Shown: positions 3,220 through 42,118 of the stretch, one piece after another
Layout: every line of letters begins with the position of its first letter
Position numbering within the stretch: position 1 is the stretch's first letter
Origin: Lachnospiraceae bacterium
GTDB lineage: Bacteria; Bacillota; Clostridia; Lachnospirales; Lachnospiraceae
DNA: 64,000 nucleotides
Assembly: GCA_017936885.1 (NCBI GenBank)
Contig: JAGBEO010000018.1
Coordinates: 1-64,000, forward strand
Direction of reading: 5' to 3'
Notes under the pieces: model-generated
Seen by the model: the letters and a program-made list of their open reading frames with translations, nothing else
What the model was told of the DNA's origin: nothing
Databases searched by the model: none
Translations under genes and position numbers: made by a program

Positions 3220-3747
3220 ATGAAGAAAATAGAAATTCTAACAAAACGTTTACGACTAAAACCATTGGGAAGCGAATATCTTCAAACAGTAAATGACTAC
3301 GCTATGGATTATGAAAACACAAAATATATGTGCCGTCTGCCTAACGACAATATAGAAGAAACCGTAAATTTTTTAAGAAATGCTGATGCAGAGTGGGAAA
3401 AAGAAAAACCTGAGTATTATGAATTTGCAATTCTTTATGGAAATAAACATATAGGTGCAGTCAGCATTTATTTTGAAGAAGGGATCGGGGAGCTGGGCTG
3501 GATTGTGAATAAAAAATACTGGCGAAATGGATTTGCATATGAAGCCGCGGATGCTCTCGTTCACTTCTTTATCCATAACATGGGAACGACCCATTTTATT
3601 GCTTATTGTGATACAGAAAATGTTGCTTCTTATAAAATAATGGAAAAACTCGGTATGGTTAGAACCGGCGAGTGGGGTGGAAGAAGAAACAAATCAGCAT
3701 TGCAGGATACTTGTGAATATCAGTATGAATTGATTGTATCAAGATAA
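3220..3747 (+). CDS. GNAT family N-acetyltransferase, RimJ/RimL type
   Basis: This 175-residue acetyl-CoA-dependent transferase has the RimJ/RimL-like (Acetyltransf_3) layout. It starts ILTKRLRLKPLGSEYLQTV, then has a GELGWIVNKKYWRNGFAYEA acetyl-CoA loop and ends with NVASYKIMEKLGMVRTGEW. Relatives acetylate protein N-termini, amino groups of antibiotics or small amines; the substrate here cannot be read. The start at 3220 is chosen because TTTTGAGG lies 9 nt upstream, although an in-frame start 57 nt earlier exists. A terminator follows at once, so this is a single-gene unit. Confidence 0.88.
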   Translation: MKKIEILTKRLRLKPLGSEYLQTVNDYAMDYENTKYMCRLPNDNIEETVNFLRNADAEWEKEKPEYYEFAILYGNKHIGAVSIYFEEGIGELGWIVNKKYWRNGFAYEAADALVHFFIHNMGTTHFIAYCDTENVASYKIMEKLGMVRTGEWGGRRNKSALQDTCEYQYELIVSR

Positions 3748-3760
3748 ATCTATGCCATTT

Positions 3761-3794
3761 AAAGCTCTCAACGTTTGGGGGGCTTTCTTTTTTT
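3761..3794 (+). terminator. Rho-independent terminator after the acetyltransferase
   Basis: AAAGCTCTC pairs with GGGGGCTTT, including G-T wobbles, and a run of T follows. It lies 14 bp after the GNAT stop codon. Confidence 0.7.
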
Positions 3795-3899
3795 ATAGGA
3801 AAAAGGTATGATGGTGGTGAAAGTACAGGTAGCGTTCAGACCGGCTGTACTTTATAAACTTTGTGATACGACAGATCATAGAATGTGAGAAATGTGGAA

Positions 3900-4931
3900 A
3901 TGAAAAGAGCAGAGGAAACTATCATTGAATATTACAATCATTACGACGAGGAGAGCAGGTTGTTCCGTGATTATCTGCATCAAATAGAATATAGAACGAC
4001 AATGTACTATTTTGATAAATTACTACCTCCAAACAGTAAAATCTTCGATGGGTGTGCCGGAACGGGCAATTATGCATTTGCGTTAGCCGGGAAGGGACAT
4101 GCCGTGTTTGCCAGTGACATCGTGCCGCATAACGTTGATATGATGCGCAAGAAACAGGAAGGATCTGAACAACTGCAAGAAATAAGTATCGGAGATATCT
4201 GTAACGTTGAACAATATGAAAATAACTTTTTTGATGTAGTACTTTGCATGGGAGCTTTTTACCACTTAGACGAAGCAGGACGGCATAAGGCACTGAAAGA
4301 ATGTCTGCGAATCTTGAAAAAAGGCGGCATCCTGGCGATAAGCTATATTAACCTGATGGCTGCCATCTATTTACAGCTTGATCCAGGACTTAAGAACATG
4401 GAACAAATCTTAAACTGCTATCATGCAAGAAGCTTTGGTGATGCATTTACCTATATGTCGCCAAAGGAAATAGAAAGTATGGCGCAGGATTACGGATTAG
4501 AAGTGCTCTGTCACTTGACATCAGATGGTAATGCTTATATGCATGGTTCAGATTTTAACCGGGCGTCTGAGGACGATTTTAATCGCTTTATGGAATTACA
4601 TTTACATTCCTGCGAAGATAAATTTCTATTGGGAAGCGGCTTACATGGGCTCATTTTTCTTCGTAAAAACAGGCAGGAAGAGCAAGGTGGCGATTTACTT
4701 GCAAATCTGGAGCAATTACATACAACCGAACTTGGGGCAGGAAGAATTAAAAAAAATCTGTCACTGGATATGGAAGATAAAGAAGATATAGTTTCATGGT
4801 GCAGAGACAAAATAAAGTCACCGGATGCTTTGATTTCACGAAGCGGGAAGAACTGGTATGTTGTAATAGACGGTTGTATTATAACGATAAACGCGTATAG
4901 CTACACAATTATCACGGCGCATCATGCATAG
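3900..4931 (+). CDS. SAM-dependent methyltransferase fused to DUF3781
   Basis: The N-terminal part (about 1-250) is a class I methyltransferase: SAM motif I reads IFDGCAGTGNYAFALA, followed by the acidic strand end VFASDIVPHN and the post-motif FFDVVLCMGAFYHL. The C-terminal 75 residues match DUF3781, normally a stand-alone protein of about 80 residues, with its hallmark LHTTELGAGRIKKNL and the ending INAYSYTIITAH. The two parts are joined in frame through a short Glu/Gln linker. The substrate is unknown. ATG 3900 is used; an in-frame GTG at 3885 is an alternative, and neither has a strong ribosome binding site. It stands alone between a terminator and the reductase promoter. Confidence 0.85.
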   Translation: MKRAEETIIEYYNHYDEESRLFRDYLHQIEYRTTMYYFDKLLPPNSKIFDGCAGTGNYAFALAGKGHAVFASDIVPHNVDMMRKKQEGSEQLQEISIGDICNVEQYENNFFDVVLCMGAFYHLDEAGRHKALKECLRILKKGGILAISYINLMAAIYLQLDPGLKNMEQILNCYHARSFGDAFTYMSPKEIESMAQDYGLEVLCHLTSDGNAYMHGSDFNRASEDDFNRFMELHLHSCEDKFLLGSGLHGLIFLRKNRQEEQGGDLLANLEQLHTTELGAGRIKKNLSLDMEDKEDIVSWCRDKIKSPDALISRSGKNWYVVIDGCIITINAYSYTIITAHHA

Positions 4932-5044: not shown

Positions 5045-6604
5045 ATGGCGAAAGACTATTTAACAGAATTTCTTCCGGATCTGGAAGAGTTCAGAGACAA
5101 AACGATGAAATTTCATAATAAGGAAATAACCGTACCGGAGTACAAAGGCTTTTCCGGCGGTTTCGGAAGCTATGCGGAGAGAGGCGGTGCTTCCCATATG
5201 CTGAGACTTCGCATGGCAGGCGGAAGGGTGACGAAGGAACGTCTGCAATTCATTACAGAGGCATGCGATCAGTATGATATTAAAAGAATGAAACTCACAA
5301 CCTGTCAGTCCATCCAGTTGCACAACTTAGAGGCTGTCCAGTTGTGTGATATGATCGAGGATGCATGGAAGGCAGGCATGATATCCCGCGGCGGCGGTGG
5401 TGACTTCCCGCGTAACGTCATGGCATCTCCGCTTTCCGGTGTACAGAAGGATGAATATTTTGATGTACTGCCCTATGCACAGGCAGCAGGGGAATATTTG
5501 ATGGGATTTATTAAGGCAGTAAAGTTCCCGCGTAAATTAAAAGTTGCTTTTTCCAATTCACCGGAAAACGAAACCCATGCAACTTTCCGTGATCTTGGAT
5601 TTGTGGCGACTCCTGAGGGGACTTTTGATGTCTATGCGGCAGGCGGACTTGGCAATAATCCGAAGCTGGGTGCCTGCGTAGCACAAGGAATCGAACCGAA
5701 TAAAATTCTTTATTACATCAAAGCGATGGTGAACACCTTTGTCACCTATGGCAATTATGAGAACCGCGGGCGCGCAAGAACACGTTATATGCAGGACACC
5801 CTTGGTACAGAGGGATTCATTAAAGCTTATCAGGAGAAACTTAATGAGGTACTCCGGACAGAACAGTTAGACCTTGAGATCGTGGCTCCTGTCATTTCAA
5901 AATCAGGATCAGGAACGGCCATGCCTGATGAAAGTATCGTTGCTGACAAACGTATCATTCCGCAGAAACAGGATGGACTCTATGCGGTTTATTATCAGCC
6001 GGTGGGCGGTGATTTCGCGCCGAAGAAAGCGAAAGAACTATATGACCTGATCAAAGATATGGAAGATGTAGAAATCCGTCTTACCGCAGAAGAGGGCCTT
6101 TACATCATTAATTGTAATACAGAGGAAGCCAAGCAGGTACTGGAACTGACCAAAGACGGTGCGAATACTTTATTTGAGACTTCCGTAGCCTGTATCGGCA
6201 GCGCGATCTGTCAGGTCGGAATCGGTAAGTCGCAAGCTCTATTGCAGTCCTGCGTAGAAGCAGTCCGTAAAGAAAATTTTGCAGACGGGGTTCTGCCGAA
6301 GATTCATATTTCCGGCTGTCCGTCTTCCTGCGGTACACACCAGATTGCAGACATCGGCTTTAGGGGTGCCATGAAACAGACACCGGACGGCCCTAAGCCT
6401 GCTTTTGCAATTTTCATTGGAGGCTGTGCATGGCAGGGTAAAGAAATCCTTGCAGATGTAGGCAAAGCGATCACGGTAGAAGAGATACCGTTGTTCCTTG
6501 TGGAGCTTGGCAAAATGATTTCTGCCGAGAACAGTACTTATGATCAGTGGATTCAGGGAAATCAGGACAAATTGGATGATTTGATTGCGAAGTATACGGC
6601 TTAA
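5045..6604 (+). CDS. Siroheme-dependent nitrite/sulfite reductase
   Basis: This 519-residue cytoplasmic enzyme reduces sulfite or nitrite by six electrons at a coupled siroheme and [4Fe-4S] centre. The fold shows the usual two-fold repeat: a ferredoxin-like half domain near 50-115 (ending KLTTCQSIQLHNLE), a siroheme domain (about 120-300), then a second half domain and the cluster-binding domain. The cluster ligands are readable as Cys-x5-Cys in VACIGSAICQVG and Cys-x3-Cys in SGCPSSCGTH. Length is normal for the NirA/CysI family. No flavoprotein subunit, siroheme synthase or sulfate-activation genes are adjacent, so electrons probably come from ferredoxin. Sulfite against nitrite cannot be settled from sequence alone. 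GGGGGC precedes the start. Confidence 0.9.
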   Translation: MAKDYLTEFLPDLEEFRDKTMKFHNKEITVPEYKGFSGGFGSYAERGGASHMLRLRMAGGRVTKERLQFITEACDQYDIKRMKLTTCQSIQLHNLEAVQLCDMIEDAWKAGMISRGGGGDFPRNVMASPLSGVQKDEYFDVLPYAQAAGEYLMGFIKAVKFPRKLKVAFSNSPENETHATFRDLGFVATPEGTFDVYAAGGLGNNPKLGACVAQGIEPNKILYYIKAMVNTFVTYGNYENRGRARTRYMQDTLGTEGFIKAYQEKLNEVLRTEQLDLEIVAPVISKSGSGTAMPDESIVADKRIIPQKQDGLYAVYYQPVGGDFAPKKAKELYDLIKDMEDVEIRLTAEEGLYIINCNTEEAKQVLELTKDGANTLFETSVACIGSAICQVGIGKSQALLQSCVEAVRKENFADGVLPKIHISGCPSSCGTHQIADIGFRGAMKQTPDGPKPAFAIFIGGCAWQGKEILADVGKAITVEEIPLFLVELGKMISAENSTYDQWIQGNQDKLDDLIAKYTA

Positions 6605-6611
6605 AACAGTA

Positions 6612-7172
6612 TTAGTCGGCATGGACAAGTGCGGGAATGGTGCAATAAGCTTTTTCCAGTATTTCAACCATTTCGTCAGGTGTCTCTTCGCATCCGTCCA
6701 GAAGCCATTTATATGCAAGGGATTTCAGGCTGGCAGAGAAAGAAATCATCAGATAGGTTGCCGTTTTTAAATCCAGACAGGAGTCCGGGAAAAACTGTTT
6801 GTGATTATGGACAAAAGAATCCATTAAGGCCGTTGTGATGTGGAAGGTATCATTAGTGCTGAAAAAAGCTATATAGAAAGAACGGTTTTCTTTTAAAAAT
6901 TGAAAATATTTTAAAAAGGTTTCAAAAGATGGAACAGATTCCTGCATTAAAATTGTATGAATGTGTTCCATTTTTTCTTGTTCTATTTTCAGGATAAGGT
7001 CATTGATATCTTCATAATGAGTATAAAAGGATGGTCTGGAGATGCCGGATAGGCGGCAGATATCCTGTACATAGATTTCATCAAGTTTTTTGCCTTCTTG
7101 CAGTAAATGAAGGAAAGTGTCTATGATTTTCTGTTCTGTTTCCTGATAGCGTTTATTGTTTGAAGTATTCAT
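6612..7172 (-). CDS. TetR/AcrR family transcriptional regulator
   Basis: This 186-residue one-component regulator has an N-terminal helix-turn-helix (about 10-55: YVQDICRLSGISRPSFYTHY) and a helical ligand-binding and dimerisation part. The C-terminal region resembles the TetR_C_7 type common in Firmicutes. It ends 8 bp from the end of the convergent reductase gene and starts about 160 bp from the divergent alcohol dehydrogenase, which is its most likely target. The ligand is unknown. The start follows AAAGGGGTAAT. Confidence 0.9.
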   Translation of the reverse strand: MNTSNNKRYQETEQKIIDTFLHLLQEGKKLDEIYVQDICRLSGISRPSFYTHYEDINDLILKIEQEKMEHIHTILMQESVPSFETFLKYFQFLKENRSFYIAFFSTNDTFHITTALMDSFVHNHKQFFPDSCLDLKTATYLMISFSASLKSLAYKWLLDGCEETPDEMVEILEKAYCTIPALVHAD

Positions 7173-33187: not shown

Positions 33188-33877
33188 ATGGCGGAATGGG
33201 CATCAAATTTCTGTGACTTGTTTTATAAATGTTTTATCAAAGAAGATCGTTATAAATTACTGTTAAGCGGTATCGGCGTAACCATTAAGGTGTCTTTGCT
33301 GGCGATTGTTATCGGTATTTTGATCGGTATGCTGATTGCCCTGTGCAACCTTTCCAAGAAAAGAATTTTGAAAATCATTGGCGGTATTTATACCGATATC
33401 ATACGAGGTACACCGTCTGTAACTCAGTTAATGATTATTTACTTCGTTATTTTCGCATCTGTGAATCTGGATAAATGGATTATTGCGGCGATTGCATTCG
33501 GTATCAACTCCGGTGCATATGTATCTGAGATTATCCGAGCCGGTATTATGTCGATAGATAAAGGCCAGACAGAGGCGGGCAGATCACTGGGACTGAGTGC
33601 TTACCAGACTATGACAAGAATCGTGATTCCGCAGGCCGTGAAGAATATTTTCCCGGCATTGTGCAACGAGTTTATCGTGTTGATTAAAGAGACTGCCATC
33701 GTCGGTTACGTAGGGCTTATGGATATCCAGAAAGCCGGTGATTTCATTAAGAGCGCGACATTCATCGCATTTATGCCGTTGATCGGAACTGCCGTTATTT
33801 ATTATGTACTGATTAAGATTCTGACATTACTGTTGGGCAGAATCGAAGCAAGACTGAGAAAATCTGATGCCAGATAG
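33188..33877 (+). CDS. Polar amino-acid ABC transporter permease
   Basis: This 229-residue membrane subunit of the HisM/GlnP type has four to five membrane segments. IRGTPSVTQLMIIYF and the ATPase-docking EAA loop (EAGRSLGLSAYQTMTRIVIP) are both typical. It presumably works as a homodimer with the ATPase 15 bp downstream and the binding lipoprotein at 34717. GAAAGGATGAAAACAG precedes the ATG. Confidence 0.93.
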   Translation: MAEWASNFCDLFYKCFIKEDRYKLLLSGIGVTIKVSLLAIVIGILIGMLIALCNLSKKRILKIIGGIYTDIIRGTPSVTQLMIIYFVIFASVNLDKWIIAAIAFGINSGAYVSEIIRAGIMSIDKGQTEAGRSLGLSAYQTMTRIVIPQAVKNIFPALCNEFIVLIKETAIVGYVGLMDIQKAGDFIKSATFIAFMPLIGTAVIYYVLIKILTLLLGRIEARLRKSDAR

Positions 33878-33892
33878 GAGGGAGGAAGCCAT

Positions 33893-34615
33893 ATGATTAA
33901 AGTGAAGAATCTGCACAAGAAGTTTGGTGACCTCACCGTCCTTAACGGAATCGATGAACATATTACGCCGGGTGAAGTAGTAGTTGTGATCGGGCCTTCC
34001 GGTTCCGGTAAGAGTACCTTCCTAAGATGCTTGAATCTGCTGGAGACTGCTACTGACGGTGAAATCTATGTGGATGATGAGCTGATTAACACTCCGAAGG
34101 TTAATGTAAACCGTATCAGACAGAAAATGGGAATGGTGTTCCAGCAGTTTAATCTGTTTCCCCATCTGACAATTATGGAGAATATAACCTTAGCTCCCGT
34201 GCTTTTGAAGAAAATGACTAAGGCAGAGGCGATTCAGAAGGGACAGGAGCTGTTAGCCCGTGTGAATCTGTCGGAGAAAGCGAATGCTTACCCGGCTCAG
34301 TTATCCGGCGGACAGAAACAGCGTGTGGCGATTGCAAGAGCACTTGCCATGGACCCGGAGATCATGCTTTTCGATGAGCCGACTTCCGCGCTTGACCCGG
34401 AGATGGTAGGCGAGGTTCTGGATGTTATGAAGGATCTTGCGAAATCGGGAATGACCATGGTCATTGTAACCCATGAGATGGGATTTGCCAGAGAAGTGGC
34501 ATCCAGAGTTCTTTTTATCGATCAGGGTATCGTGATGGAGAGCGGCACCCCGGAGGAAGTCTTCGGCAATCCGAAGAATGAGAGAACCAGGAACTTCTTA
34601 AGTAAGGTACTGTAA
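33893..34615 (+). CDS. Polar amino-acid ABC transporter ATPase
   Basis: This 240-residue ATPase of the GlnQ/HisP type has Walker A (GPSGSGKST), a Q-loop ([12 protein letters not shown]), signature (LSGGQKQR), Walker B ([14 protein letters not shown]) and a switch His (IVTHEMGFA). It is cotranscribed with the permease before and the binding protein after. GGAGGGAGGAAGCCAT gives a strong start. Confidence 0.95.
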
Positions 34616-34716
34616 GTACGGTATTATGCCGGTATCTTTTTGGAAAGACCGGCTTATGATACACAAGTATGTCAGCCGATATGTACGGCTGGCTAATGTT
34701 TAAGGAGGAGATTATT

Positions 34717-35595
34717 ATGAAAAAAGCAACAAAAGTATTGGCACTTATCCTTGCCATGGCTATGATGGCATGTACCCTCGTAGCATGCGGCAGCAGTGCA
34801 GACACAACAGCAGCAGATGCTAACACAGAGACAGCAGCAGACACGGAAACAGAAGCGGCAGATACAGAAGCAGCTGAAACAGAGGATGCAGAAGAAGCTG
34901 CTCCGGCAGAGGGCGGTACGATCACTTTCGGTACAAACGCAGAGTTCCCGCCTTTCGAGTTTGTAACAGCGAATGGTGTAATCGGCGAGTTTGACGGTAT
35001 TGATATGGCTATTGCGAAACAGATTGCTGAGGAAAACGGCATGACAGCAGCAATCGAGAACATGGAGTTTGACTCTCTGTTAGTAGCCCTTCAGAACGGT
35101 CAGATTGATGCGGTTATCGCAGGTATGACTATCACGGAAGAGAGAGCAGAAGCAGTAGATTTCTCTATGCCTTACTATACAGCAACTCAGGTTATGATTG
35201 TTAAGGAAGATTCCGATATCGCTTCCGCAGCCGACATGGCAGATAAGAAGATCTGCGTTATCCAGGGCTACACGGGCGAGGTATGTGTCAATGATATGGG
35301 TTATCCTTACGAGTCCTTCAAGAAAGGTACAGAGGCAGTTATGGAGCTTGTAAACGGCAAGTGTGATGTAGTCGTAATTGACTCTGCAACCGCTGCTAAG
35401 TATGTAAGCGACAACGAAGGATTAAAGATTGTAGAAGATCCTGATGCATTCGAATCTGAAGAGTATGCGATCGCAGTACAGAAGGGTAACACAGAGTTAC
35501 TTGATATGATCAATAAAGCAATCGAAGCAAAGCTTGCAGACGGTACAATCTCTGAACTGGCAGTACAGTACACAGAGGCAGCTTCCGAGGAATAA
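34717..35595 (+). CDS. Amino-acid-binding lipoprotein, normal lobe order
   Basis: This 292-residue binding protein has a lipobox, TLVAC (Cys 24), an acidic Thr/Ala/Glu linker (25-65) and an SBP_bac_3 fold. The N-lobe start is ITFGTNAEFPPFEF (69-82) and the C-terminal end of the fold, YAIAVQKGNTELLDMINKAI, lies at 250-269. It serves the permease and ATPase upstream; the amino acid is not determined. TTAAGGAGGAG supports ATG 34717 over a longer reading from 34669. It is a useful internal reference for the permuted paralogue at 39605. Confidence 0.93.
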   Translation: MKKATKVLALILAMAMMACTLVACGSSADTTAADANTETAADTETEAADTEAAETEDAEEAAPAEGGTITFGTNAEFPPFEFVTANGVIGEFDGIDMAIAKQIAEENGMTAAIENMEFDSLLVALQNGQIDAVIAGMTITEERAEAVDFSMPYYTATQVMIVKEDSDIASAADMADKKICVIQGYTGEVCVNDMGYPYESFKKGTEAVMELVNGKCDVVVIDSATAAKYVSDNEGLKIVEDPDAFESEEYAIAVQKGNTELLDMINKAIEAKLADGTISELAVQYTEAASEE

Positions 35596-35639
35596 GATTT
35601 AAGTGTACCTTAAGAAAAGTTATATATCATGATTTCATA

Positions 35640-35672
35640 AGCCCTGATAGCCATATGGTTGTCGGGGCTTTT
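35640..35672 (+). terminator. Terminator of the first amino-acid ABC operon
   Basis: AGCCCTGATAGCC pairs with GGTTGTCGGGGCT (13 bp, three wobbles) around ATAT, followed by TTT. Confidence 0.75.
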
Positions 35673-35731
35673 GTGTGGTATAATCGACCATGTATGATAA
35701 ATAAAAGGATTGTGTGAGCAGGAGTGAAACC

Positions 35732-36127
35732 ATGAAAACAGTCAGAGTAGCAGCGGCGATTATCACCCATGAGGGTAAGATATTTGCCACCCAAAGAGGG
35801 TATGGAGAGTTCAAAGACGGCTGGGAATTTCCCGGCGGCAAGATAGAGGACGGCGAGACACCGCAGGAAGCACTGCGGCGCGAGATCAGGGAAGAGTTAG
35901 ACACGGAGATTGCAGTGGGAGAGCTTGTAGATACCATCGAATATGATTATCCGTCTTTTCATCTTTCTATGGATTGCTTCTTATGTAAGGTTCAATCGGG
36001 AGATTTGGTATTGAAAGAACATAAGGCGGCTAAGTGGCTGACGCAGGAGAAGTTAGACAGCATTGACTGGCTGCCGGCTGATATCGATTTGGTCAGGAAG
36101 TTAAAAGAAATAAATTTATCACGGTAG
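35732..36127 (+). CDS. MutT-like Nudix hydrolase
   Basis: This 131-residue protein has a complete Nudix box: GKIEDGETPQEALRREIREE (Gly-x5-Glu-x7-Arg-Glu-Ile-x-Glu-Glu). It begins VAAAIITHEGKIFATQRG, close to MutT, and contains WEFPGGK. Expected activity is cleavage of oxidised nucleotides such as 8-oxo-dGTP to the monophosphate, or of CTP analogues. ATG 35732 follows CAGGAG and is preferred to a GTG 18 nt upstream. A single-gene unit. Confidence 0.9.
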   Translation: MKTVRVAAAIITHEGKIFATQRGYGEFKDGWEFPGGKIEDGETPQEALRREIREELDTEIAVGELVDTIEYDYPSFHLSMDCFLCKVQSGDLVLKEHKAAKWLTQEKLDSIDWLPADIDLVRKLKEINLSR

Positions 36128-36212
36128 AATTTGCAGATCAAGGTGCTGCCTGCGGAAATAAGTCGAAAAATAGAATTAGTAGTTTGTGAATAGACTGTTT
36201 TATGATATACTT

Positions 36213-36239
36213 ATAAAGATTCTGCTGCAGTATCTTTAT
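36213..36239 (+). promoter_or_regulatory. Inverted repeat in the symporter promoter region
   Basis: ATAAAGAT and ATCTTTAT form 8-bp perfect arms around an 11-nt centre (TCTGCTGCAGT), just downstream of a likely -10 box (TATACT, about 36206-36211). It could be an operator for the symporter at 36294. Confidence 0.4.
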
Positions 36240-36293
36240 ATGGTTATTCTGCATACTATATAAAAATGCTGCAATATAAACTGGAGGTTTACC

Positions 36294-37484
36294 ATGAAAA
36301 AATTATTCAATAGTTTGCCGTTTCGGCTTTTACTGGGTGTAGTATTGGGTATTCTGATCGGGCAGATTGCAAATGAGAGTGTTATGAATGTAGTCGTAAC
36401 GGTAAAGTACATACTGAATCAGGTCATTGTATTCTGTGTACCGCTTATCATCATCGGCTTTATCGCTCCGTCTATTACGAAGCTGGGAAGTCATGCGTCT
36501 AAAATTCTGATGGTTGCAGTAGGAATTGCATATCTTTCCTCCATCTGCGCGGCACTCGGATCTATGGCAGCGGGATATCTGATCATTCCCCATCTGTCTA
36601 TCGTATCGGATGTGGAAGGTCTGAAAGAATTGCCTGAGATTGTATTCCAATTAGACATTCCACAGATTATGCCGGTTATGAGTGCACTGGTATTTTCTAT
36701 GATGATCGGTCTGGCAGCAGTGGGGACTAAGGCTGTAACCATTACAGCCATTTTGGATGAATTTCAGAAGATGATACTGTTAATCGTAACGAAGCTTGTG
36801 ATTCCGCTTCTGCCTATTTTCATTGGATTTACCTTCTGTGCTTTGTCCTATGAGGGAACGATTACGAAACAGTTCCCGGTATTTGTACAGATCATCGTGA
36901 TTGTGCTGATAGGGCATTATATCTGGATGGCGGTTTTATATGGTATCGCCGGACTGTATGCAAAGAAGAATCCGCTGGACATTGTGAAGAATTATGGGCC
37001 TGCCTATCTGACAGCGGTAGGAACCATGTCTTCCGCAGCAACGCTTGCGGTTGCGCTGCGCTGTGCCAGGAAATCCGTACCGCCTCTTAGAGAAGATATG
37101 GTGGACTTCGGAATTCCGCTGTTTGCCAATATTCATCTGTGCGGCTCTGTGCTGACAGAGGTATTCTTCGTAATGACGGTATCCAAGATTCTCTATGGCA
37201 GCATTCCGTCTCTTGGAACGATGATTCTGTTCTGTGCCCTGTTAGGTATTTTTGCCATCGGTGCGCCGGGTGTGCCGGGCGGAACCGTGGTGGCATCATT
37301 AGGCTTAATCAGCGGTGTGCTTGGTTTCGGCGAGGAAGGGCTTGCCCTGATGCTTACGATCTTCGCATTGCAGGACAGCTTCGGTACAGCATGTAATGTC
37401 ACCGGTGACGGTGCATTGACGTTGATCCTGTCAGGATATGCGGATAAACATAAGATAGAAAATGTACCCGCGAGTATAGAGTAA
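36294..37484 (+). CDS. Dicarboxylate/amino-acid:cation symporter (DAACS)
   Basis: This 396-residue transporter belongs to the sodium/proton-driven glutamate, aspartate or dicarboxylate uptake family. It has about eight membrane helices and two re-entrant loops; the serine-rich loop reads GTMSSAATLAVALRCARK and the substrate-binding end FGTACNVTGDGALTLIL. The exact substrate is unknown. GGAGGTTTACC before the ATG is a strong ribosome binding site. A second family member (SstT) follows 89 bp downstream. Confidence 0.92.
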   Translation: MKKLFNSLPFRLLLGVVLGILIGQIANESVMNVVVTVKYILNQVIVFCVPLIIIGFIAPSITKLGSHASKILMVAVGIAYLSSICAALGSMAAGYLIIPHLSIVSDVEGLKELPEIVFQLDIPQIMPVMSALVFSMMIGLAAVGTKAVTITAILDEFQKMILLIVTKLVIPLLPIFIGFTFCALSYEGTITKQFPVFVQIIVIVLIGHYIWMAVLYGIAGLYAKKNPLDIVKNYGPAYLTAVGTMSSAATLAVALRCARKSVPPLREDMVDFGIPLFANIHLCGSVLTEVFFVMTVSKILYGSIPSLGTMILFCALLGIFAIGAPGVPGGTVVASLGLISGVLGFGEEGLALMLTIFALQDSFGTACNVTGDGALTLILSGYADKHKIENVPASIE

Positions 37485-37573
37485 TATGCGGGGTAATAGC
37501 TGACAAACGGCAGAAAACAAGCGGGTAATACCGGGAGGCTGTTTAGATAACAAAAGAAAGGTTTTGAATTAAC

Positions 37574-38809
37574 ATGAAAAAAGTGTGGGAGAAATGGACA
37601 GGGGTAAGCCTTGTCGGAAGAATTGTTGTAGGATTGATTATCGGTGCACTGCTGGCGCTTTTCGTACCGCAGGCATCCGGTATAACGATTTTGGGAGACG
37701 TGTTCGTCGGTGCCCTGAAAGCGATTGCACCGCTTCTGGTATTTTTCTTAATTATCAGTTCCCTGTGCAATGCAAAGACCTCTGACGGCAAACGCAGCGG
37801 TGTCATCGGAACGGTTATCATTCTGTATATGTTCAGTACGGTTCTGGCAGCGGTTATTGCGGTATTTGCCAGCATGATTTTCCCGGTGGAGATGGTTTTG
37901 ACGGATGTGGCACAGGATGTGATGTCTGCGCCTACGGGAATCGCAGAGGTGTTATCTACCCTGCTGCTTAACTTAGTGGCAAACCCGATAGCATCCCTTG
38001 TCAATGCCAATTATTTAGGAATTCTCGCATGGGCAGTCTTACTGGGCATTTCCTTAAGAGCGGCAGGCGATACCACGAAGAAGGCAATGGCGGATATTGC
38101 GGACGGTATTTCCAAGGTGGTTGTTATTATCATTAACTTTGCACCGTTTGGTATTTTAGGGCTGGTATACAGCAGTGTTTCCTCCAGCGGTTTAGAGACC
38201 TTTGCCAATTATGGCAAGCTGCTGATCCTTTTGGTGGGATGTATGCTGGGCATTTATTTTATTACGAATCCTATGTTGGTATACTGGTGCATTCGTAAGA
38301 ACCCCTATCCGCTTATTTTCAAGTGTTTAAAGAGAAGTGCGATCACGGCATTCTTTACCAGAAGCTCTGCGGCAAATATTCCGGTTAATATGGAAGTCTG
38401 TGAGGAAATGGGATTAAACAAAGACAATTATTCTGTTACGATTCCGTTGGGCGCGACGATCAACATGGACGGTGCCGCAATCACCATTACGGTTATGACG
38501 ATGGCGACTGCTCATACGCTGGGGATTGCAGTAGACATTCCGACGGCGATTATTTTAAGTCTGTTAGCGGCAATCGGGGCCTGTGGTGCATCCGGTGTGG
38601 CAGGCGGTTCTCTGCTGCTGATCCCGATGGCATGTTCCCTGTTTGGTATTCCGGATACTGTATCCATGCAGGTGGTTGCAGTGGGATTTATCATCGGCGT
38701 CATTCAGGATTCTGTAGAAACGGCACTGAATTCCTCTTCCGACCTTCTTCTGTCTGCATCGGCAGAATTCAGACAGTGGCGGTTGGAAGGCAAAGAGATT
38801 ACATTTTAG
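37574..38809 (+). CDS. sstT: Sodium:serine/threonine symporter SstT
   Basis: This 411-residue DAACS member matches SstT along its length: TGVSLVGRIVVGLIIGALLA at the start, the loop FFTRSSAANIPVN, the sodium motif ATINMDGAAITI and the end GVIQDSVETALNSSSD. It imports serine and threonine with sodium. AGAAAGGTTTTG lies upstream. With the neighbouring DAACS symporter and two ABC systems it forms an amino-acid uptake cluster. Confidence 0.92.
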   Translation: MKKVWEKWTGVSLVGRIVVGLIIGALLALFVPQASGITILGDVFVGALKAIAPLLVFFLIISSLCNAKTSDGKRSGVIGTVIILYMFSTVLAAVIAVFASMIFPVEMVLTDVAQDVMSAPTGIAEVLSTLLLNLVANPIASLVNANYLGILAWAVLLGISLRAAGDTTKKAMADIADGISKVVVIIINFAPFGILGLVYSSVSSSGLETFANYGKLLILLVGCMLGIYFITNPMLVYWCIRKNPYPLIFKCLKRSAITAFFTRSSAANIPVNMEVCEEMGLNKDNYSVTIPLGATINMDGAAITITVMTMATAHTLGIAVDIPTAIILSLLAAIGACGASGVAGGSLLLIPMACSLFGIPDTVSMQVVAVGFIIGVIQDSVETALNSSSDLLLSASAEFRQWRLEGKEITF

Positions 38810-38994
38810 ATAGCAGAAGCTTACAGACAACTGCGGAAGCCTCTAGATAAATCCGCTTTTATGTGTCAGGAATAATTCTGTGCCTGTTCTGCCATACTAA
38901 TATTTGACAGGAGACGTCCGGGCGTTTCTCCGGCGTTTTAAGATGGCTGCTTGCCCTTGCGGCAGGGTGCCGGTCAGAAAGAAGGAGGCAGGCT

Positions 38995-39426
38995 ATGGAA
39001 GATGATACAATCAAGTTACTGCGGGAATGTAATGCGGGTATTAAGATGGGAATTTCTTCTCTGGATGAGGTGATGGAGCATGTGCAGAACAGTATGCTGG
39101 AAGATCTGCTCAGGCAAAGTAAGGATACGCACTGTAAACTGGGAAATAAAACCCATGAATATCTGCGGGAATGTCACGATGAAGGGAAAGAGCCGGCAGC
39201 GATGGCAAAGATGATGTCATGGATGAAAACCAACGTAAAGCTTGGCGGTGAGGAATCCGACAGAGTGGTGGCAGATCTGATTACGGATGGATGCAATATG
39301 GGTGTGAAGACACTCTATCGTTATCTGCACCAATATCAGGCGGCTGACGAGAAAGCCAAGAAACTTGTGAAAGAGACGATCGAGGCGGAAGAAACCCTGA
39401 TCAAAGACATGAGAGAGTATCTGTAA
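38995..39426 (+). CDS. Small helical protein, possibly ferritin-like
   Basis: This 143-residue all-helical protein reads as a four-helix bundle: IKMGISSLDEVMEHVQNSML, then HCKLGNKTHEYLRECH, KMMSWMKTNVKL and YLHQYQAADEKAKKLVKETI. Conserved-looking His, Glu and Met positions hint at a ferritin- or hemerythrin-like bundle, but no firm family is assigned. GAAGGAGGCAGGCT gives a strong start. It lies between SstT and the second ABC system. Confidence 0.7.
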   Translation: MEDDTIKLLRECNAGIKMGISSLDEVMEHVQNSMLEDLLRQSKDTHCKLGNKTHEYLRECHDEGKEPAAMAKMMSWMKTNVKLGGEESDRVVADLITDGCNMGVKTLYRYLHQYQAADEKAKKLVKETIEAEETLIKDMREYL

Positions 39427-39604
39427 CGGATGCTCTTTCTCTTTGTTTTTTCTTCTATTTTGTTTTCTTTTCTGTTTTTTGCCATTTACTTTAGCCTACT
39501 ACTATGTTAAAATGTGATGCGAAGTTCAAAATATCTAAACAGTTCAAAAGTTTGGAAGGACAAATTTTTGAATGATAAAATCTTTGAACAGGGAGGAAAA
39601 TATT

Positions 39605-40483
39605 ATGAAAAAGAAACTTGCACTTATGGTGGCATTGTCCCTTACAGTGGGTACCTTGCTGACAGGATGCGGCAAAGAAGCTGATAAGACAGCTCAGACT
39701 GCTGCTGAAACAACAGAGGCGGCAGCAGAGGAAGGTGCTGAGGATGCAGCAGCTGAGACAACGGAAGAGACAGCAAATGCAGATCTTGTATATGCTGTAG
39801 AAGCCGGTTCCGCAGGTGAGGCAGCAGCAAATGATAACGGTTTTCAGACTAACGTAGTAGCTTCTCAGGCAGATGCGCTGATGGAAGTAGCTTCCGGTAC
39901 TTCTGATGCGGCAATCATCGATTTACTGATGGCCGGTGCCATGATCGGCGAAGGTACAAGCTACCCGAACCTGACACATACAGATGAGCTTACGACAGAG
40001 GAATATGGTGTAGGATGTCGTAAAGGTTCTGATCTTGCTTCTTATATTAACTCTGTTTTTGCAGAGAGCTATGCAGACGGTTCCATGGCAGAGACAGCCA
40101 CTACATACGGCGTACAGGAAGCATTAGTAGAGCAGACTGCTTCTGAATTTGCAGCTTCTGAGGCTGACAGTGATGTGGCTTATATTCAGGAGAAGGGCAC
40201 ATTGATCGTTGGTATCACAGACTTTGCTCCTATGGATTACAAGGATGACAACGGCGAGTGGATCGGCTTCGATGCGGATATGGCCCGTATGGTAGCAGAG
40301 AAGTTAGGTGTTGAAGCACAGTTCGTAGAGATCGACTGGGATAATAAGATCATGGAGCTGGATTCCAAGAATATCGATGTTGTATGGAATGGTATGACAT
40401 TGACAGATGAAACGATGGAAGCTATGGAGTGCACGAACGCATACTGCAACAATGCACAGGTTGTGGTTGTGCCTGCTAACTAA
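39605..40483 (+). CDS. Amino-acid-binding lipoprotein with permuted lobes
   Basis: The 292-residue protein has a lipobox, TLLTGC (Cys 22), and an acidic linker. The next part (60-178) matches the second half of ordinary SBP_bac_3 proteins: VYAVEAGSAGEAA, ASGTSDAAIIDLLMAGAMIG, EEYGVGCRKGSDLA, then YADGSMAETATTYG. The first half of the fold comes last (196-290): GTLIVGITDFAPMDYKDDNG, GFDADMARMVAEKLGV, VWNGMTLTDETMEAM. The order is reversed relative to the binding protein at 34717, so this is a circular permutation that keeps signal peptide and linker. Start 39605 follows GGGAGGAAAATATT. A hairpin follows, then the permease and ATPase it probably serves. Confidence 0.9.
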   Translation: MKKKLALMVALSLTVGTLLTGCGKEADKTAQTAAETTEAAAEEGAEDAAAETTEETANADLVYAVEAGSAGEAAANDNGFQTNVVASQADALMEVASGTSDAAIIDLLMAGAMIGEGTSYPNLTHTDELTTEEYGVGCRKGSDLASYINSVFAESYADGSMAETATTYGVQEALVEQTASEFAASEADSDVAYIQEKGTLIVGITDFAPMDYKDDNGEWIGFDADMARMVAEKLGVEAQFVEIDWDNKIMELDSKNIDVVWNGMTLTDETMEAMECTNAYCNNAQVVVVPAN

Positions 40484-40503
40484 TATAGTATTTGGATAGC
40501 ATA

Positions 40504-40541
40504 AAGTTCTAAGGCGGAACTTTTCTGCCTTAGAACTTTTC
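40504..40541 (+). terminator. Intra-operon terminator after the permuted binding protein
   Basis: AAGTTCTAAGGC pairs perfectly (12 bp) with GCCTTAGAACTT, followed by TTTC. It probably lowers permease and ATPase expression relative to the binding protein. The unit ACTTTTCTTATGTGA after it recurs at about 40599-40613, behind a second weaker stem (CGGCAG/CTGCCG). Confidence 0.8.
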
Positions 40542-40662
40542 TTATGTGAGAGGAAAGAGTTCGGCAGTAGTGGGAAGAAAGCCTGGCTGCCGGGTCGGAC
40601 TTTTCTTATGTGAAAAGGAAAAGCCCCGGATAAGGGTATCGTTATCAGATTGGGAGAAAAGT

Positions 40663-41319
40663 ATGTTTTGGTCAGTTACACAATCATTATTGGGTGGTCT
40701 GCTTACCACCTTTCAGATTTTTATCTTTACGCTGTTGATTGCGCTGCCGCTGGGCTTAATCATTGCCTTCGGCGCCATGAGTAAATTCAAACCGTTGCGT
40801 TATTTAGTGGACGTATTGGTCTGGATTATCCGCGGTACGCCGTTGATGCTGCAGCTAATCATTATTTTCTACGGTCCCGGACTTTGGCTTGGACACAATA
40901 TCTGGAGCGGCAATGAAACAGGGCGTATCACGGCTACGGTGGTGGCTTTCAGTATTAATTATGCCTGCTATTTCTCAGTCATCTTCAGAGGCGGTATTGA
41001 AGGTGTGCCGGTAGGTCAGCGGGAAGCGGGAGAGGTGCTTGGCATGACCAAGAGCCAGATTTTCTTTAAAGTTACACTGCTGCAGATGGTCAAACGGGTG
41101 GTACCGCCTATGTCCAACGAGATTATTACGCTGGTCAAAGATACTTCTCTGGCTCGTATCATAGCAGCTTATGAGCTTACCTTTGCGGGATATTCCTTTA
41201 TGAAGAGTGACGGTTTGACATGGCCGCTGTTCTATACGGGTGTCTTCTATCTGTTGTTTGTCGGCATTTTGACATTGTTGTTTAATTATATTGAGCGCAA
41301 GCTGGATTACTTTAGGTAA
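40663..41319 (+). CDS. Polar amino-acid ABC transporter permease
   Basis: This 218-residue HisM/GlnP-type subunit has about five membrane segments, with WIIRGTPLMLQLIIIFYG and the docking loop REAGEVLGMTKSQIFFKV. It ends ERKLDYFR, like many family members. ATG 40663 follows TGGGAGAAAAG and is preferred to a reading that starts 117 nt earlier. It pairs with the ATPase that begins 13 bp downstream. Confidence 0.93.
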   Translation: MFWSVTQSLLGGLLTTFQIFIFTLLIALPLGLIIAFGAMSKFKPLRYLVDVLVWIIRGTPLMLQLIIIFYGPGLWLGHNIWSGNETGRITATVVAFSINYACYFSVIFRGGIEGVPVGQREAGEVLGMTKSQIFFKVTLLQMVKRVVPPMSNEIITLVKDTSLARIIAAYELTFAGYSFMKSDGLTWPLFYTGVFYLLFVGILTLLFNYIERKLDYFR

Positions 41320-41332
41320 GGAGGGGACGGAA

Positions 41333-42118
41333 ATGGCGATTTTGGAAGTGAAGAATATTGAGAAACATTTCGGTTCCACACAGGTACTTAAGGATGTCAG
41401 TTTTTCTTTGGAGGAGGGCAATGCGTTAGCTATCATCGGTTCTTCCGGTTCCGGCAAGACGACACTGCTTCGCTGCTTAAATTTCCTGGAGACACCGAAT
41501 CAGGGTTCTATCAGCGTGAAAGATGAGACGCTCTTTGATGCATCCATGCCGTTAAAGCAGCATGAGAAGGATTTGAGGACGAAGAGACTGCACTTCGGTA
41601 TGGTGTTTCAGTCTTTCAATTTGTTTCCTCAGTACACAGCGCTGGAAAATGTGATGTTATCGGCACAGCTTCTTGCGAAGGAGAGACCGGATTACAAGCA
41701 GAATAAGAAAGAAATCCTTGCGCAGATAGAGGAGCAGGGCAAAACACTGTTAGACCAGATGGGTTTAAAAGACCGGATGGATCATTATCCCCATCAGTTG
41801 TCCGGCGGGCAGCAGCAGCGTGTGGCGATCGCGAGGGCCCTTGCTTTGAGTCCGGATATTTTGTGTTTCGATGAACCTACGTCTGCACTTGACCCGGAAT
41901 TGACGGGCGAGGTTTTAAAAGTGATCAGAGGCTTGGCAGAGCAGAAGACGACAATGATTATCGTAACCCATGAGATGGCATTTGCCAGAGATGTAGCAGA
42001 TCAGATTATTTTCATGGATGATGGCGTGATTGTGGAGCAGGGTGATCCGAGACAGGTCATCGACAATCCGAGAGAAGAGAGAACGAAGCAGTTCCTGACC
42101 AGATATACAGAAGGGTAG
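41333..42118 (+). CDS. Polar amino-acid ABC transporter ATPase
   Basis: This 261-residue ATPase has Walker A (GSSGSGKTT), a Q-loop (VFQSFNLFPQYT), signature (LSGGQQQR), Walker B ([14 protein letters not shown]) and a switch His (IVTHEMAFA). It has a slightly longer helical region (about 105-140) than the paralogue at 33893. GTAAGGAGGGGACGG before ATG 41333 supports the start. It closes the second amino-acid ABC operon. Confidence 0.95.
   Translation: MAILEVKNIEKHFGSTQVLKDVSFSLEEGNALAIIGSSGSGKTTLLRCLNFLETPNQGSISVKDETLFDASMPLKQHEKDLRTKRLHFGMVFQSFNLFPQYTALENVMLSAQLLAKERPDYKQNKKEILAQIEEQGKTLLDQMGLKDRMDHYPHQLSGGQQQRVAIARALALSPDILCFDEPTSALDPELTGEVLKVIRGLAEQKTTMIIVTHEMAFARDVADQIIFMDDGVIVEQGDPRQVIDNPREERTKQFLTRYTEG

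Follow-up and report, generated by a model that had tools for sequence, protein, structure and literature searches.

A natural circular permutant of a family-3 binding protein in a Lachnospiraceae ABC operon, and further permuted registers in the same family

Results

The permuted gene and its surroundings

The window, that is, the whole 64,000-nucleotide stretch analysed here (contig JAGBEO010000018.1, positions 1 to 64,000), comes from a Lachnospiraceae bacterium that is probably a gut commensal. It contains an uptake-gene cluster (33188-42118) made up of a canonical amino-acid ABC operon, two other transporters (a sodium:dicarboxylate-type symporter at 36294-37484 and an SstT-like Ser/Thr transporter at 37574-38809), and an ABC operon whose binding protein (SBP) is permuted. 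The latter protein, P0001, is an SBP_bac_3 lipoprotein of 292 residues encoded at 39605-40483, with its parts in the order D2 - D1b - D1a according to sequence, profile, PDB and rotation comparisons; this gene and the features of its operon all lie on the forward strand. Just upstream, a 143-aa protein is encoded at 38995-39426, for which Pfam and NCBIfam searches matched nothing.

A Shine-Dalgarno-like AGGGAGG, read off the sequence at 39590-39596, is followed 8 bases downstream by the ATG, and the signal peptide ends in the lipobox LTGC at residues 19-22 (39605-39670), in agreement with the good start and intact lipobox claimed in the initial annotation. Cys22, presumably the lipidation site, is invariant across 8/8 rows in an alignment of the window protein with permuted relatives. 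An Ala/Glu/Thr-rich low-complexity linker, which differs in length among relatives, then covers residues 23-59 (39671-39781) and leads into lobe D2 (residues 60-131, 39782-39997), placed after D1a in canonical relatives and delimited, with approximate edges, by the paralogue and PDB alignments and by the helices and strands of the model. According to the alignments, the second inter-lobe strand EEYGVGC and D1b follow (residues 132-178, 39998-40138) and correspond to the canonical C-terminus. In the new junction (residues 179-192, 40139-40180), which follows the end of the canonical C-terminus, a few residues left over from an N-terminal linker lead into DSDVAYIQEKG. The chain is completed by D1a (residues 193-292, 40181-40480), which the paralogue, Pfam and PDB alignments identify as the canonical N-terminal part and which ends just past the first inter-lobe strand QVVVVPAN.

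Between the SBP gene and the permease gene, a perfect 12-bp hairpin (40504-40515 with 40527-40538) followed by TTCTT was read off the sequence at 40504-40538. The hairpin previously called a terminator is thus present; its appearance is attenuator-like and its role in termination is putative. Downstream lie an amino-acid type ABC permease (40663-41319; Pfam BPD_transp_1; HEQRo_perm_3TM at 65.3 bits, cut-off 42.2) and an ABC transporter ATPase (41333-42118; Pfam ABC_tran; best NCBIfam model TcyN at 313 bits, short of the 406 required), both taken as cognate by position. NCBIfam equivalog cut-offs are reached by none of the SBP, the permease and the ATPase, the permease passing the general permease-domain model.

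The canonical operon of the cluster provides an in-window reference, the SBP_bac_3 paralogue P0002 (34717-35595, forward strand), whose canonical order is read from alignment and Pfam. Both proteins are indeed 292 residues long, as had been remarked, but this equality is a coincidence, seven permuted relatives measuring 257-270 residues.

Exchanged order of the two pieces

Use of P0002 as normal-order reference proved sound, its first half aligning to P0001 residues 181-290 (33% identity, E 6.5e-10) and its second half to residues 59-169 (29% identity, E 2.1e-9). PF00497 (SBP_bac_3) is the sole Pfam family matched by P0001 at E 0.001, and in the native sequence only residues 201-291 match, covering profile positions 2-92 of 132 with 94.3 bits (gathering score 26.4). 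Upon in-silico rotation to D1a-D2-D1b, one stretch reaching profile positions 2-130 of 132 was obtained, with 102.9 bits. The gathering score is therefore passed by the native protein, and full-profile canonical order fails until the sequence is rotated. Similarly, phmmer aligned native P0001 to PDB chain 6svf (TmArgBP) in two stretches (residues 194-289 on chain positions 6-102, residues 62-159 on 120-217) with 97.5 bits, and the rotated sequence in a single one (7-206 on 6-217) with 102.3 bits.

The swap of SBP_bac_3 halves proposed in the initial annotation, and the comparison of the halves with the family profile that it called for, are thus upheld by paralogue, Pfam and 6svf alike. In addition, P0001 has the lipoprotein signal (LTGC) and the downstream permease and ATPase partners (BPD_transp_1 and ABC_tran genes) of PF00497 members. 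Since it belongs to the same family, is cyclically shifted in order and is encoded by a natural gene, P0001 qualifies as a naturally occurring, circularly permuted SBP. The new termini had been placed where the two lobes are joined; the cut between D1a and D2 does coincide with one of the two inter-lobe crossovers, but the resulting pieces are D2+D1b and D1a rather than two lobes.

Structure model

An AlphaFold2 model built with 81 permuted sequences showed, for residues 55-292, a mean pLDDT of 93.5 and a pTM of 0.85. Foldseek and VIA follow sequence order, so that the whole permuted chain lies outside what they can align. Accordingly, TM-scores by query length from Foldseek ranged from 0.28 to 0.49 among the 50 matches listed, and its tight superpositions (80-89 columns, 1.5-2.6 A, 31-41% identity) correspond to the D1a part, as in 6ggp (83 columns, 1.6 A, 41% identity); VIA likewise superposes only this part well. 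Such D1a-only superposition is what is expected from a permutant under an in-order search. The permuted chain would be expected to fold into an ordinary two-lobed SBP. The model of canonical P0002, built from 13 rows, reached a pLDDT of 50.2 and was left out of the fold searches.

Conservation of the permuted order

When one genome per species was scanned, at least 560 relatives of P0001 were found, and the best 80 were kept (79 distinct proteins, 69-95% identical to P0001 over the mature part). Permuted order was found in 80/80 of these foreign loci. Taxa given in their record titles are Lachnospiraceae, Roseburia porci, Acetatifactor, Agathobacter, Blautia, Oscillibacter and other Oscillospiraceae, among others; three of the loci are strain-named records, Roseburia porci (L081), Bacterium 0.1xD8-71 (L055) and Bacterium 1xD42-87 (L063), and most of the remainder are metagenome bins. 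In eight of 299 genomes of the family, the window genome among them, one continuous match begins no later than residue 61 and extends at least to residue 289, and none of the eight has a second match at E 1e-20; the proteins of three of them are identical to those of L075, L111 and L112. The same order in related genomes, which the initial annotation had asked to be checked, was therefore found in every kept locus and in all eight genomes with a full-length match. When all 50 candidates in the window genome were scored, the next-best match to P0001 was only 33% identical. In the other seven, with 8 candidates scored per genome, the presence of an additional canonical copy is improbable.

Substitution patterns also argue for constraint. 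Against L038, the only unsaturated pair (the other six are saturated or nearly so), dN was 0.044 and dS 0.70, the values by block being 0.01/0.81 for D2, 0.07/0.76 for D1b and 0.04/0.54 for D1a. In 6/7 pairs the junction, a block of 14 residues, had a higher dN than the other three blocks. These rates point to purifying selection on the gene. Alignments of permuted relatives show invariant blocks in both pieces.

Canonical orthologues and operon context

Canonical order is displayed by 22/22 near orthologues (L014-L035), whose identity to P0001 is 60-73% over D2+D1b and 69-81% over D1a. Removal of duplicates and near-identical sequences left 113 rows, and thinning of the window clade to 20 produced a careful tree of 94 rotated sequences, L090 8211-9110, a divergent type-B frame on a very long branch, and the highly divergent canonical L004 being dropped. 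In this tree the 20/20 window-clade rows group together (100/100) and are nested with nine canonical rows (99/84).

The permeases reproduce this picture. In a quick permease tree of 85 rows, built without any SBP letters, one branch separates the window-clade permeases. A permease lies within 310 bases downstream, on the same strand, in 92/93 window-clade copies, 66-100% identical to the permease of the P0001 operon (the 100% is that permease compared with itself), the sole locus with no permease match beside the permuted SBP being L096. In 21/22 of the canonical loci L014-L035 a permease also follows, with 61-67% identity, L016 being cut by its contig. Outside the window clade, 42 permuted loci were read, of which L133, L143, L149 and L150 showed no permease match within their stretches of 3.5-5.5 kb. 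Since unpermuted orthologues precede related permeases, the permuted order is, on these sequence comparisons, derived from the canonical one.

Junction sequence and a fused tandem gene

On one side of the junction, the window sequence YGVQEALVEQ closely parallels the canonical C-terminus YGVQDALVEQ (L122). What follows this C-terminus is a short remnant and then a canonical start of the DSDVxYIxxKGTL kind, and some 14-16 residues found between D1a and D2 of canonical proteins are missing in permuted ones. This arrangement is as predicted by an in-frame head-to-tail duplication from which both outer parts were lost.

A frame of that kind was found at L206 (2591-4174, reverse strand, G1034:C6), where segment profiles read two head-to-tail canonical SBPs (D1a-D2-D1b-D1a-D2-D1b) behind one signal peptide in 528 aa. 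Its copies are 79% identical (178/225), and the first is sister to the type-B permutant L145 (98/93 in the 94-row tree, 97/88 in an 88-row tree). This fused tandem double looks like a duplication intermediate and is a candidate for one, in a subfamily other than that of P0001.

Recurrence of permuted registers

Natural circular permutants are commonly regarded as isolated curiosities. Three segment profiles (D1a, early D2, and late D2+D1b) served to establish in which order the parts stand in the SBP frames of the loci, and three permuted registers were found besides the canonical one. Register A, that of P0001, runs early D2 - late D2+D1b - D1a. Register B, with its cut inside D2, runs late D2+D1b - D1a - early D2. 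Register C, assigned by eye, is cut inside early D2 shortly past the first strand and helix of that lobe. All three join D1b to D1a and have their new ends in or beside lobe D2.

Under subfamily names coined in this analysis, register A is shown by a sister group with its Arg motif intact (L117-L119, L132), by a distant group (L195-L199), by L144 of the 'GLDDxFxPMGF' subfamily, and by L200, L202, L203, L214 and L218 of the P0002 subfamily. Register B is found in L120, L123, L124, L126, L130, L133, L134, L140 and L143, in L145, L146, L149-L153, L221 and L222 of the 'GLDDxFxPMGF' subfamily, and in L080 (at 3448-4311), L201, L212, L213, L215-L217 and L219 of the P0002 subfamily; register C in L147, L148, L211 and L220. 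Thus, the permuted SBP is no singular case, at least three permuted registers being scattered over the tree of the same SBP family.

Some individual loci are of interest in themselves. In L203 (2633-4243, G257:C11) a type-A permuted SBP runs straight into a permease domain within one frame of 537 aa (SBP_bac_3 and BPD_transp_1). L080 carries two permuted SBPs in different registers, the type-B one of the P0002 subfamily at 3448-4311 and a window-type A one at 5962-6801. The frame at L090 8211-9110, near a window-type permuted SBP, is a very divergent SBP-like one with type-B order, whose long branch makes its placement unsure.

In a class-level sample, at least 39 of 391 genomes, under 16 family codes, carry one or more permuted SBPs, and in a phylum-level sample at least 12 of 398 do, four of which belong to the class-level sample as well; these counts are lower bounds from strong matches, and the search profile favours permuted forms, so that they do not measure the permuted share among all SBPs. 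The 39-genome count was limited to frames actually read, since a junction-spanning match alone is no proof: the match in G284, over query residues 130-291, belongs to a canonical frame (L154), and the candidate in G649 has stops inside the frame. A scan of viral contigs returned one locus, L116, in canonical order. Judging from record titles, the bacteria with permuted proteins appear to be mainly Clostridia.

On the careful trees, label changes amount to 6 for register A (6 forced by well-supported branches), 6-7 for B (5-6 forced) and 1 for C, and to 13 and 14 on the 94- and 88-row trees when all labels, canonical and tandem included, are considered; they are changes of label and not gains, with reversals possible within the counts. 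The 88-row tree differs by the removal of 16 further rows and the inclusion of 10 others, L090 8211-9110 being one of the 10, with L216, L219 and L222 of 12 extra loci left out. Most label changes are read here as separate permutations, reversion to the canonical arrangement being considered the less likely event. A single origin of all A rows was rejected in an AU test (p 8.6e-45). Placing the window clade and L117-L119 with L132 in one clade gave a marginal result (p 0.027) for groups named after seeing a tree, and a common origin of the two A groups is conceivable.

Discussion

Function of the permuted protein

In our reading, P0001, a natural permutant derived from a canonical family-3 SBP, very probably serves as the functional binding protein in an ABC importer of the amino-acid type with an SBP-permease-ATPase operon. 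Its ends having moved while its surfaces are unchanged, it would be expected to dock on the same permease. The lipid anchor would enter via lobe D2 instead of D1, and the lobes would be covalently linked by one hinge strand only, the second one (EEYGVGC), because the chain stops right after the first inter-lobe strand; hinge positions are here assumed to be those of GlnBP. The blocks expected at the pocket, AGSAGE and AAIID in D2 and PMDY and GMTLT in D1a, are kept in alignments of permuted relatives, and closure of the permuted SBP on its ligand should therefore resemble that of its relatives. These consequences for hinge, anchor, docking and transport are what we infer from the altered order.

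Regarding the ligand, the Arg of the GMTxTxxR motif, which we take to hold the ligand carboxylate in SBP_bac_3 proteins, is replaced by Thr in P0001 and by Val (73) or Thr (11) in 84/84 distinct window-clade proteins, so that the ligand may be something other than a standard alpha-amino acid. The replacement is not tied to the permutation, since 22/22 of the near canonical orthologues L014-L035 have Val at this position too. The Asp of AAIID is kept in permuted relatives though this Arg is replaced.

A lipobox was not seen in 6/84 distinct window-clade proteins, one of the six being cut by a contig edge; this weakens the idea that anchoring is the point of the permutation. The other five (L078, L082, L084, L094 and L095) have a signal peptide that apparently ends directly before D2 and are probably not lipid-anchored.

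Alternative explanations

The window genome is a draft of 36 contigs, in which a misassembly or chimaeric contig might have exchanged the two halves of the gene; but order and junction are common to all 80 foreign loci, three of them strain-named (L055, L063, L081), and to the eight full-match family genomes (three records overlap between these sets), which makes an artefact of assembly practically negligible. Scrambled domains and the existence of canonical relatives could also suggest the functionless, decaying remnant of a tandem duplication. However, the frame is open, the comparison with L038 gives a dN far smaller than dS in each of the three blocks D2, D1b and D1a, both pieces have invariant blocks, the operon is retained, and the window genome has no canonical replacement among the 50 candidates scored, so a pseudogene is very improbable. 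The earlier opinion that the gene is unlikely to be debris can thus be restated with the conserved order, purifying selection, confident model and retained operon behind it. It is scarcely more credible that P0001 has left the importer to act as a decoy, sensor or scavenger without docking on a permease, as the five apparently non-lipidated relatives (of 84) and the permease-free L096 might hint, given the permease close by in the other 92 of 93 copies and a permease tree that mirrors the window clade. Altogether, the sequence data describe P0001 as real, conserved, derived and very probably functional.

With regard to origin, the tandem duplication followed by loss of outer parts that the initial annotation favoured is supported by the junction and by the L206 double in a related subfamily. 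A canonical gene would have been duplicated in tandem and in frame, fusing two copies (...D1b-linker-D1a...); the first copy would then have lost D1a and the linker helix, and the second everything past the first inter-lobe strand, leaving signal peptide-lipobox-D2-D1b-D1a. For the window clade this duplication route stays an inference, as L206 belongs to another subfamily. Recombination of adjacent or broken SBP genes, or duplication of one segment, might have produced the permutation in place of a fused tandem, and would suit the presence of more than one SBP gene at several loci and the lack of a fused intermediate among the window-clade loci read. The succession of C-terminus, remnant of a linker and N-terminus at the junction, which a head-to-tail fusion would be expected to leave, together with the existence of in-frame fused doubles such as L206, renders this rival rather unlikely, and the fused tandem duplication is preferred.

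Meaning of the recurrence

Beyond the single protein, we tentatively propose, as a possibility that falls short of even odds, that circular permutation is a recurrent and selected change in family-3 SBPs, probably of Clostridia and their relatives, which moves the anchor from D1 to D2 (register A also cutting one hinge strand) and might retune opening or tethering with pocket and docking faces left intact. The permuted forms share their operon partners with close orthologues in canonical order (60-81% identical when the halves are compared), which makes the questions they open directly testable: the effect of a moved anchor and a severed hinge on affinity, closing and docking, and fused duplicates as a route to permutation. 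They also call for caution, profile searches and domain annotation covering only part of permuted proteins.

Comparison with known systems

In the open-access literature covered (titles and starts of abstracts among the matches listed, with subscription papers and preprints outside), no paper on permuted SBP_bac_3 proteins was found, and TpMglB-2 was the sole natural permuted transporter binding protein found. The recurrence of permutation in amino-acid SBPs thus appears new, a natural permuted sugar SBP being already known.

With SBP_bac_3 (PF00497) proteins such as TmArgBP (6svf) and GlnBP, P0001 has in common the alignment of both pieces, the operon type and the lipoprotein signal; it differs from them in its order, D2-D1b-D1a instead of the canonical D1a-D2-D1b, and in the loss of the residues between D1a and D2. 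OpuAC (2b4m), a type II betaine SBP, shows 12% identity to P0001, which perhaps reflects pseudo-twofold similarity of the lobes. It has reportedly been described as a 'domain dislocation' relative to ProX. The L. lactis OpuAC paper (PMC2861598) makes no mention of permutation, swap, dislocation or rearrangement. Engineered circularly permuted binding proteins and permuted halves likewise tolerate new termini, but these are laboratory designs, as far as the excerpts of one example go (PMC9815098).

The closest parallel is TpMglB-2 (Tp0684) of Treponema pallidum, for which the published description reports a naturally permuted chain seen in the crystal structure, ligand binding with a change of conformation, relatives in gut Gram-positives and a classification as 'Type Ic / Cluster Bc', its authors raising adaptation to tethering as a possibility (PMC4990184). 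The statement that known permuted binding proteins are mostly engineered has therefore to be corrected in the light of this natural example. Both are natural, conserved permutations of a lipoprotein SBP with relatives in gut Gram-positives. TpMglB-2 is set apart by its description as a class I sugar SBP, P0001 being of the class II amino-acid type. Moreover, the permutation of TpMglB-2 adds a fourth crossover, whereas the cut of P0001 at an inter-lobe crossover should remove one.
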